A model generated the notes under the pieces. The model was not told where the DNA came from. It ran no database searches and saw only the letters and a list, made by a program, of their open reading frames with translations. The position numbers and the translations under genes are program-made. Below, one piece after another: positions 40,888-57,632 of a stretch of 64,000 nt of DNA (the stretch's first letter is position 1; every line of letters starts with the position of its first letter). The stretch comes from Dyadobacter flavalbus (lineage in GTDB: Bacteria; Bacteroidota; Bacteroidia; Cytophagales; Spirosomataceae), in NCBI RefSeq assembly GCF_006149045.1, contig NZ_VBSN01000049.1, positions 558,001 to 622,000 on the forward strand, given 5' to 3'.

Positions 40888-41358
40888 TCAGGATTCGGCA
40901 AGCGGAATGGAGCGGTTGATACGTTCTTCAAGTGAAATAAATGTTTCGGTCCGCTGGATGCCGTTCACTTTCTGAATCTTATCATGAAGAATTTCCCTTA
41001 AATGCCCTGTATCGCGGCAGACGATTTTTATAAAAATACTGTAAATACCCGTTGTATAATGAATATTGACTACTTCCGGAATGCTTTCCAGCTCGGTTGC
41101 TACTTGCTCATACAAAGAACTTTTTTCGAGGTAAATCCCTAAAAACGCGCTGATGTCCCAGCCGAGCTTTGCAGGATCGATAATCAGCTGGGAACCGCGT
41201 ACAATTCCCATCTGTTCCAGCTTTTTCATACGCACATGCACAGTACCGCCGGAAACAAAAACCCTCTTGCCGATCTCGGTATAAGGCAGCGCAGCGTTCT
41301 CCATCAGCAGAGAAAGAATGCGCAAGTCTGTATTATCAATATCAGAATATTTTTGCAT
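40888..41358 (-). CDS. Lrp/AsnC family transcriptional regulator
   Basis: A 156-residue feast/famine regulator. The N-terminal winged helix shows DNTDLRILSLLMENAALPYTEIGKRVFVSGGTVHVRMKKLEQMGIVRGSQLIIDPAKLG (residues about 6-66), and the C-terminal RAM (ligand-binding) domain shows SAFLGIYLEKSSLYEQVATELESIPEVVNIHYTTGIYSIFIKIVCRDTGHLREIL. Such proteins sense amino acids and act as octamers or as activators and repressors. It is oriented away from the structured RNA that starts 121 bases upstream; the two promoters could share control. Confidence 0.93.
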   Translation of the reverse strand: MQKYSDIDNTDLRILSLLMENAALPYTEIGKRVFVSGGTVHVRMKKLEQMGIVRGSQLIIDPAKLGWDISAFLGIYLEKSSLYEQVATELESIPEVVNIHYTTGIYSIFIKIVCRDTGHLREILHDKIQKVNGIQRTETFISLEERINRSIPLAES

Positions 41359-41467
41359 TTAGCCTGATTTGTTTGAATAATTTACAATAATAATAACCAA
41401 ATTATGGAAAAATTGTAAATTTTGACAATTTTAAATGAAAAAATTTTATATTTAAGATGAGAAGTTT

Positions 41468-41475
41468 TAGTTTTG
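41468..41475 (+). promoter_or_regulatory. -7 element of the structured RNA
   Basis: TAGTTTTG, exact to TAnnTTTG and identical to the -7 box of the tRNA-Asp promoter, followed by CAC as in the tRNA promoters of the window. No TTG is found at 19-20 bases upstream (only TTT), so the -33 half is weak. Confidence 0.5.
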
Positions 41476-41478
41476 CAC

Positions 41479-41803
41479 AATCAAATCGAGAAAGCAGTTT
41501 AAATGCTTTTCTGAATTGATTATCACATTGTAGGGTGATGAAATTGGCAGCCATGCCCTCCTGTCTCGGGGGTGGTGAATAAGGGATAAACGCGGCATAA
41601 TGCCGACGCAAGTCGACTGGGGTGGACCACCAACAGTATTTGTACCGTAGCTAACCGCACCGTGGGTGGTTCGAATCCCCCTCCTACAGCAAAAAAAACT
41701 TGACAAGCGAATTTTTTCGTATTAGTTTTATTTGGTTTTTAGTTTGTTGATGAAGTGTAATTTGACACGCGGGTTCATTTTGAAACCTGCGTGTTTTTTA
41801 TTT
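41479..41803 (+). ncRNA. structured RNA with tRNA-Leu-like body and giant variable arm
   Basis: No protein gene lies here. After a -7 element comes a long hairpin (41479-41521, 18-base arms). From 41530 a tRNA-like body follows: 5' GTAGGG (41530-41535) pairs with TCCTAC (41682-41687); D stem ATG/CAT with Leu-type loop AAATTGGCAGC; anticodon stem CCCTC/GGGGG with loop CTGTCTC (41561-41567, triplet GTC at 41563-41565); a stem GGTG/CACC closing an 80-base variable arm (41578-41657) that contains further hairpins such as CGGCA-TAA-TGCCG; T loop TTCGAAT (41670-41676) on GGTGG/CCCCC with one mismatch; discriminator A. The 3' end is A-G-C, not CCA. A rightward terminator at 41764-41799 fits a transcript of about 320 bases. 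It is not a normal tRNA (158 nt). Class unknown. Confidence 0.6.
41764..41799 (+). terminator. intrinsic terminator of the structured RNA
   Basis: ACACGCGGGTT, loop, AACCTGCGTGTTTTTT: an 11-bp stem with one G-U pair and a six-T tail on the plus strand. The only plus-strand gene-like unit before it is the tRNA-like RNA. Confidence 0.8.
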
Positions 41804-57465: not shown

Positions 57466-57512
57466 AATACTTGTAAAGAACTAAAATAAATTTGCCACTT
57501 CATTCTGCAAGT

Positions 57513-57573
57513 CCCCATGCGTGACACCCTGCGCGGGCCGGGCATGTATTCTAACCAACTGAACTACCAAACC
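57513..57573 (-). pseudogene. tRNA-Asp fragment with anticodon-loop insertion
   Basis: Only the 5' part and the anticodon arm remain (from the 5' acceptor GGTTTGG to GGGG). Between CATGCC and TGTCACGCATG lies a 14-base GC-rich insertion, CGGCCCGCGCAGGG in tRNA orientation, at the same position as in the 57105-57221 copy and sharing its GCGCAGGG end. The T arm and 3' acceptor are missing. It is a truncated copy, not a functional tRNA. Confidence 0.7.
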
Positions 57574-57632
57574 AATACTTGTAAAGAACTTTAAACTTTC
57601 TGTTGTCTATTATAGACAAAACTTAAAACTGG

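Follow-up and report, generated by a model that had tools for sequence, protein, structure and literature searches.

A conserved tRNA-like RNA of Bacteroidota and their phages as a candidate non-decoding carrier for asparagine synthesis

A 64,000-nucleotide stretch of the Dyadobacter flavalbus genome (hereafter the window) contains an RNA with a tRNA-Leu-like body, and we consider it likely that this RNA is a non-decoding, tRNA-derived carrier that would be charged with aspartate by AspRS and have that aspartate converted to asparagine by GatCAB. We favor this reading because the conserved bases of the RNA, its gene context and the pattern of gene exchange agree. With less assurance, we lean towards a broader proposal, namely that the RNA represents a new RNA class, in which a tRNA has given up decoding for good and acts instead as a reusable cofactor for the production of a free amino acid. 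Under this proposal, the RNA would have a regulator of its own, would be ancient in Bacteroidota and carried by phages, and could be exchanged for protein asparagine synthetases. The family is found in hundreds of genomes and in phages, is unlisted, and is skipped by current tRNA and Rfam annotation.

The RNA is present in a single copy in the 6.5-Mb host genome, and the features of its locus are collected in Table 1. Its body contains the canonical features of a tRNA: a 7-bp acceptor stem (TGTAGGG/TCCTACA, where an earlier note on this DNA had counted 6 bp), a D arm (ATG-AAATTGGCAGC-CAT), a 5-bp T arm with a TTCRA loop, and N73. The anticodon arm reads CCCTC-CTGTCTC-GGGGG, and the T arm, GGG(U)GG-TTCGAAT-CCCCC with one U bulged, is followed by G73 and C74. 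Between these arms, the variable arm consists of an outer stem (GGTG/CACC), an internal loop (GGGAUAAA/CUAAC) that is the shared core of this arm across the family, and an inner hairpin of variable length. The RNA is probably a class II tRNA paralogue, specifically of tRNA-Leu. That it lacks a CCA end, to which the earlier note had drawn attention, is uninformative, as many tRNA genes of such genomes and phages encode C74 only.

Table 1. Features of the RNA locus, in window coordinates
Feature	Position	Strand	Basis
AsnC-like Lrp-family regulator gene, divergent from the RNA	40888..41358	-	Pfam AsnC_trans_reg and HTH_AsnC-type
Exact 8-bp inverted repeat AAAATTGTAAATTTTGACAATTTT between regulator gene and RNA, candidate site for the regulator	41409..41432	.	
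TAnnTTTG-type -7 box TAGTTTTG, Bacteroidota promoter type	41468..41475	+	Sequence; motif enrichment upstream of homologues
5' leader, variable, with hairpin	41479..41528	+	Hairpin -13.6 kcal/mol
tRNA-like RNA, positions 1 to 74	41529..41690	+	Covariance model R1 147 bits; covariation; conservation in 216/291 order genomes
Acceptor stem 5' strand, starting U1-G2	41529..41535	+	U1-A72 in 291/297, G2-C71 in 297/297 distinct members
D arm, tRNA-Leu-like	41538..41554	+	Stem covariation AU, UA, GC
Anticodon arm; loop CUGUCUC = 41561-41567	41556..41572	+	U35, C36 invariant; positions 33, 34 variable
Expanded variable arm	41574..41661	+	Covarying outer and inner stems; missing from 77-nt forms
T arm, single bulged U at 41667	41664..41681	+	Alignment, pair counts
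Acceptor stem 3' strand, G73 and C74	41682..41690	+	G73 in 297/297 members
Conserved 3' element; core 41728-41770, terminator 41764-41795	41691..41799	+	97-100% within-genus identity

A 176-base query matched all 37 of the same-genus genomes (93-100% identity, the window's own genome included) and many other families too. The 36 distinct same-genus sequences are 91-100% identical over 41520-41799, and identity falls to about 0.3-0.35 from 41800, which makes the 3' boundary proposed earlier, 41803, nearly exact. Across most of the leader, within-genus identity is just 0.39-0.47. Such variability is what would be expected of a segment cut off in processing, and the leader, in which the previously described 5' hairpin is indeed present, is presumably removed by RNase P. 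The terminator of the earlier note was located within the conserved 3' element. This element begins with a promoter-like TTGACA...TAGTTTTA, has its own terminator, and is possibly a separate small RNA.

The helices are also supported by covariation. In an alignment of 112 distinct sequences, 96.6% of helix cells are paired, versus 85.5% when shuffled and 54-60% when slid, and in 19 of the 28 pairs both sides have changed. The folding energy is unexceptional (z 0.07) and therefore uninformative; we regard the RNA as real because it is conserved and covarying, not because of its folding energy, and on the same grounds a chance fold is ruled out. Upstream, the motif TAnnTTTG occurs within 200 nt of the RNA in 122 of 190 homologues, versus 39 downstream and about 28 in shuffles, with a positional peak 30-50 nt before the RNA, in agreement with the promoter-like box that had been noted. 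A search of Rfam, tRNA and tmRNA families included, returned no match for the window RNA, and ARAGORN called neither a tRNA nor a tmRNA there, so membership in a known Rfam family, tRNA or tmRNA was rejected. Searches of the available literature found no description of the tRNA-like RNA. The earlier note had taken the RNA for an independent, structured molecule with a body like that of tRNA-Leu; conservation and the stem covariation that it had proposed to check support this, and its suggested Infernal comparison with Rfam, tmRNA included, likewise matched no known class. Mimicry of an anti-Shine-Dalgarno sequence by the CCUCC of the anticodon stem was also considered and rejected, as the stem changes compensatorily and the loop does not.

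Family members differ greatly in size; some are a 77-nt cloverleaf with no variable arm at all, and the variable arms of others exceed 100 nt. This bears on the suggestion that the RNA is comparable to bacterial Y RNAs, or more generally that it is a structural RNA whose tRNA shape serves only for processing or protein binding. Such a role would be compatible with tRNA mimicry and with a long variable arm built around a conserved internal loop. However, the variable arm is dispensable, no Rfam family matched, and the links to asparagine genes described below would be left unexplained. The comparison with Y RNAs also sits poorly with a complete acceptor stem bearing G73 and C74, with the 77-nt cloverleaf members, and with bases and a context linked to asparagine. 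We therefore regard a structural role of this kind as highly improbable.

Among 297 distinct members (202 cellular and 95 viral), U1-A72 is found in 291, C38 in 296, and G2-C71, G73, U35 and C36 in every one, although these invariances partly reflect the entry rules of the set, namely TC at 35-36, C or T at 38 and GC at the 3' end; exceptions are rare in untrimmed covariance-model matches (e.g., L386). Some anticodon-arm bases were fixed in the patterns by which many members were collected, but positions 33, 34, 35 and 37 were unconstrained in the second viral pattern, and genomes were searched with the covariance model. G34 is present in 274 members, the window member among them, and is replaced by A, C or U in 23. 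The window member keeps U at position 33, as do all but 39 of the 297, and is one of the 295/297 with a pyrimidine at position 37. Position 10 is mostly A or U, G10 not being conserved. Five phage members have A1-U72. A T-stem bulge occurs in 43/297 overall (21/202 cellular, 22/95 viral).

Bacterial Asp identity comprises G73, G10, G34, U35, C36 and C38 (PMC9976931), and bacterial GatCAB recognises U1-A72 (PMC4206432). The family has the AspRS determinants G73, U35, C36 and C38 and does not conserve G10, and it has the GatCAB determinant in the 291 members with U1-A72. In other words, judged by its bases, the RNA is a putative combination of most AspRS determinants with the first-pair mark of GatCAB. 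Among the many-copy tRNA types of phage tRNA arrays, U1-A72 is dominant only in tRNA-Gln and tRNA-Ile; tRNA-Asp and tRNA-Asn in these arrays are mostly G1-C72.

The family departs from the canonical elongator pattern of U33 with a purine at 37, and this misfit at both positions makes the RNA seem unfit for reading the genetic code. An unusual decoding tRNA-Asp with anticodon GUC would account for the behavior of ARAGORN, which calls only the shortest family members and calls them tRNA-Asp, and for the presence of the RNA in phage tRNA arrays. It would not account for the non-U bases at 33, the nearly constant pyrimidine at 37 or the A or C that can occupy 34, and the window already holds two ordinary tRNA-Asp genes, all of which makes a decoding role very unlikely. 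Between these two intact genes lies a broken third tRNA-Asp (about 57500-57590, minus strand), with an insertion in its anticodon stem and its 3' half lost.

The regulator gene divergent from the RNA scores best against the NCBIfam model AsnC NF008384, at 163 bits (below the 227 cut-off), followed by LrpA at 78 bits. The earlier note had proposed a search for lrp-linked homologues in Cytophagales, and at 51 of the 92 cellular loci an Lrp-family gene does lie next to the RNA in divergent orientation. The orthologue of the AsnC-like gene is kept in 7/7 RNA-positive genomes tested and is missing from 13/20 RNA-negative ones. A conserved protein partner beyond the AsnC-like gene was considered and rejected, since the other neighbours showed just local suf or acyl-CoA-synthetase synteny. 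In RNA-negative genomes with AsnB (L438, L439 and L441), the place that the RNA would occupy, upstream of the AsnC-like gene, holds the short element TATAATTGGTT and a terminator-like hairpin.

An adjoining regulator gene and a conserved 3' element would also suit a regulatory role, in which the RNA is a decoy for AspRS, GatCAB or the AsnC-like protein and, by titrating its target, tunes asparagine metabolism without carrier turnover. A parallel exists in yeast, where the AspRS mRNA shows anticodon-like mimicry (PMC9976931). We think this unlikely, however, because the strictly kept U1-A72, G73 and C74 suggest a charged 3' end and because displacement of the RNA by complete enzymes, described below, suggests a catalytic pathway.

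The host has AspRS, AsnRS, LysRS, GlnRS and GatB, and GatB was found in 9/9 RNA-positive genomes tested. Searches of the host found no AsnA and no AsnB above cut-off; its sole sizeable AsnB-like protein is without a glutaminase domain and resembles a lasso-peptide cyclase. A non-discriminating AspRS together with GatCAB acting on tRNA-Asn could make asparagine without the tRNA-like RNA, by a route that is already published (PMC4206432). The N-terminal residues of AspRS did not separate RNA-positive from RNA-negative genomes.

In a contrast of 41 genomes, true AsnB was found in 0/20 RNA-positive versus 8/21 RNA-negative genomes, and AsnA in three genomes of each group; two of the three genomes with both AsnA and the RNA come from a family in which the RNA is degenerate in some genomes. 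Across the order, an AsnB orthologue is present in 14 of 291 genomes, all of them RNA-negative, and in none of the 216 that are RNA-positive (P = 2e-9 by counts), although the 14 genomes represent about four lineages and the effective evidence is accordingly weaker than this P. These counts used an AsnB equivalog query; TIGR01536 also passes longer paralogues, and raw counts made with it are misleading. Most RNA-negative genomes of the order are also without AsnB, and many are without both AsnB and AsnA (G480 among them). AsnB and AsnA do not account for every genome in which the RNA is missing.

Another kind of exchange is seen in two RNA-negative genomes of the same family, G681 and G696, which have an operon of gatC, gatA and gatB fused to aspS (gatB::aspS, about 1100 aa). 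The operon is followed by the conserved 3' element that stands behind the RNA in the window, as seen after gatC-gatA-gatB::aspS in L419 and L420. In G681, DUF819, a Wzi-like gene and lepA come after this element. Downstream of the RNA and on its strand, homologues are found at eight RNA-positive loci for DUF819 and at seven for lepA. An AmiA-like gene lies upstream of gatC, and a relative of it is found on the regulator side of the RNA in one locus (L091). Because the operon keeps the 3' element and the downstream genes found by the RNA in relatives, the simplest reading is that gatC-gatA-gatB::aspS, a set of enzymes for tRNA-based Asn synthesis, would have replaced the asnC-like gene and the RNA in place.

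It could also be supposed that Asp or Asn is loaded onto the RNA and passed on to another acceptor, such as a lipid, a cell-wall precursor or a peptide. The identity bases and the non-decoding loop also fit this, and there is a precedent in the tRNA-Gly used in Staphylococcus wall formation (PMC8007984). However, no transferase gene is linked to the RNA, and both the exclusion of AsnB and the displacement by gatCAB::aspS would be left unexplained, which leads us to regard donation to another acceptor as improbable.

With the covariance model, the RNA was found in 216 of the 291 genomes of the order, in one to seven copies each, often in tandem (true members mostly score at least 80 bits and 77-nt forms about 72, versus below about 70 for ordinary tRNA-Leu). 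It also occurs in other families of the class and in one family outside it, and named matches include Dyadobacter, Spirosoma, Hymenobacter, Algoriphagus, Cyclobacterium, Flammeovirga and Saprospiraceae. In Flammeovirga pacifica, five copies stand in tandem at a spacing of 197 nt. Two pattern scans of viral contigs, which are predictions and may include host DNA, gave carriers well in excess of 100, and the RNA occurs at more than 130 viral loci. An ordinary tRNA lies within 1 kb at 76/132 viral loci versus 0/168 cellular loci. There is a single match among named phages, LR756504.1, an uncultured 636-kb phage in whose unannotated record the RNA sits inside a tRNA cluster; LR756504.1 is not among the matches listed for the GatB and AsnB queries. 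Five phage members have an extra hairpin in the D loop. Five phage tRNA clusters contain several tRNA-Leu-like RNAs of about 100-150 nt (AGTCAGGTGGCG...CCTGACTAC); these have acceptor, D and T arms, but their inserts are diverse and an anticodon arm is not evident. We speculate that phages with tRNA arrays may carry the RNA, like their tRNAs, to replace host RNAs lost on infection.

Hypothetically, the carrier that we favor would work as follows. The RNA would be transcribed and would then undergo tRNA-type maturation, as its sequence suggests. AspRS would put aspartate on it by way of U35, C36, C38 and G73, plus G34 in most members, and GatCAB, reading U1-A72, would amidate the bound aspartate to asparagine, a step to which gene content also points. 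Some enzyme, or hydrolysis, would have to free the asparagine, which would then feed AsnRS and the remaining metabolism; the AsnC-like protein, given its adjacency, may tune the supply to asparagine. On the ribosome, the GUC-type anticodon of an Asn-charged RNA would misread Asp codons, and we hypothesize that the RNA is kept off it by the disrupted positions 33 and 37 and by the bulk of the variable arm, together with the T-stem bulge in a minority of members. If true, a cofactor made of RNA would be serving amino-acid synthesis alongside the modern translation system.

The arrangement of the locus recalls Escherichia coli, where asnC and asnA form a divergent pair. In both cases an AsnC-type regulator is divergent from a presumed asparagine-supply gene, but that gene is the enzyme AsnA in E. 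coli and an RNA here. A long variable arm is shared with allo-tRNAs, which include some with anticodon GUC (PMC7609411), and with other non-canonical class II tRNAs; allo-tRNAs, however, have 8/4 or 9/3 acceptor/T stems, whereas the present family is 7/5, with changes at positions 33 and 37. Staphylococcus uses a non-decoding tRNA-Gly copy in cell-wall synthesis (PMC8007984), which is likewise a tRNA gene copy turned over to metabolism, but with another amino acid, no variable-arm expansion and a product that goes into peptidoglycan. In Deinococcus, Thermus and Bdellovibrio, asparagine is synthesized on tRNA-Asn by a non-discriminating AspRS and GatCAB, and a survey found bacteria, some Bacteroidetes among them, that have AsnRS, GlnRS and GatCAB but no asparagine synthetase (PMC4206432); for part of these bacteria, the RNA offers a specific, testable answer. 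Like the tRNA-Asn route, our proposal places Asp on a U1-A72 RNA for amidation by GatCAB in cells with AsnRS and GlnRS and no asparagine synthetase. It differs in the carrier, which would be an RNA distinct from tRNA-Asn with a non-decoding anticodon loop of the Asp type; charging of this RNA is a prediction.
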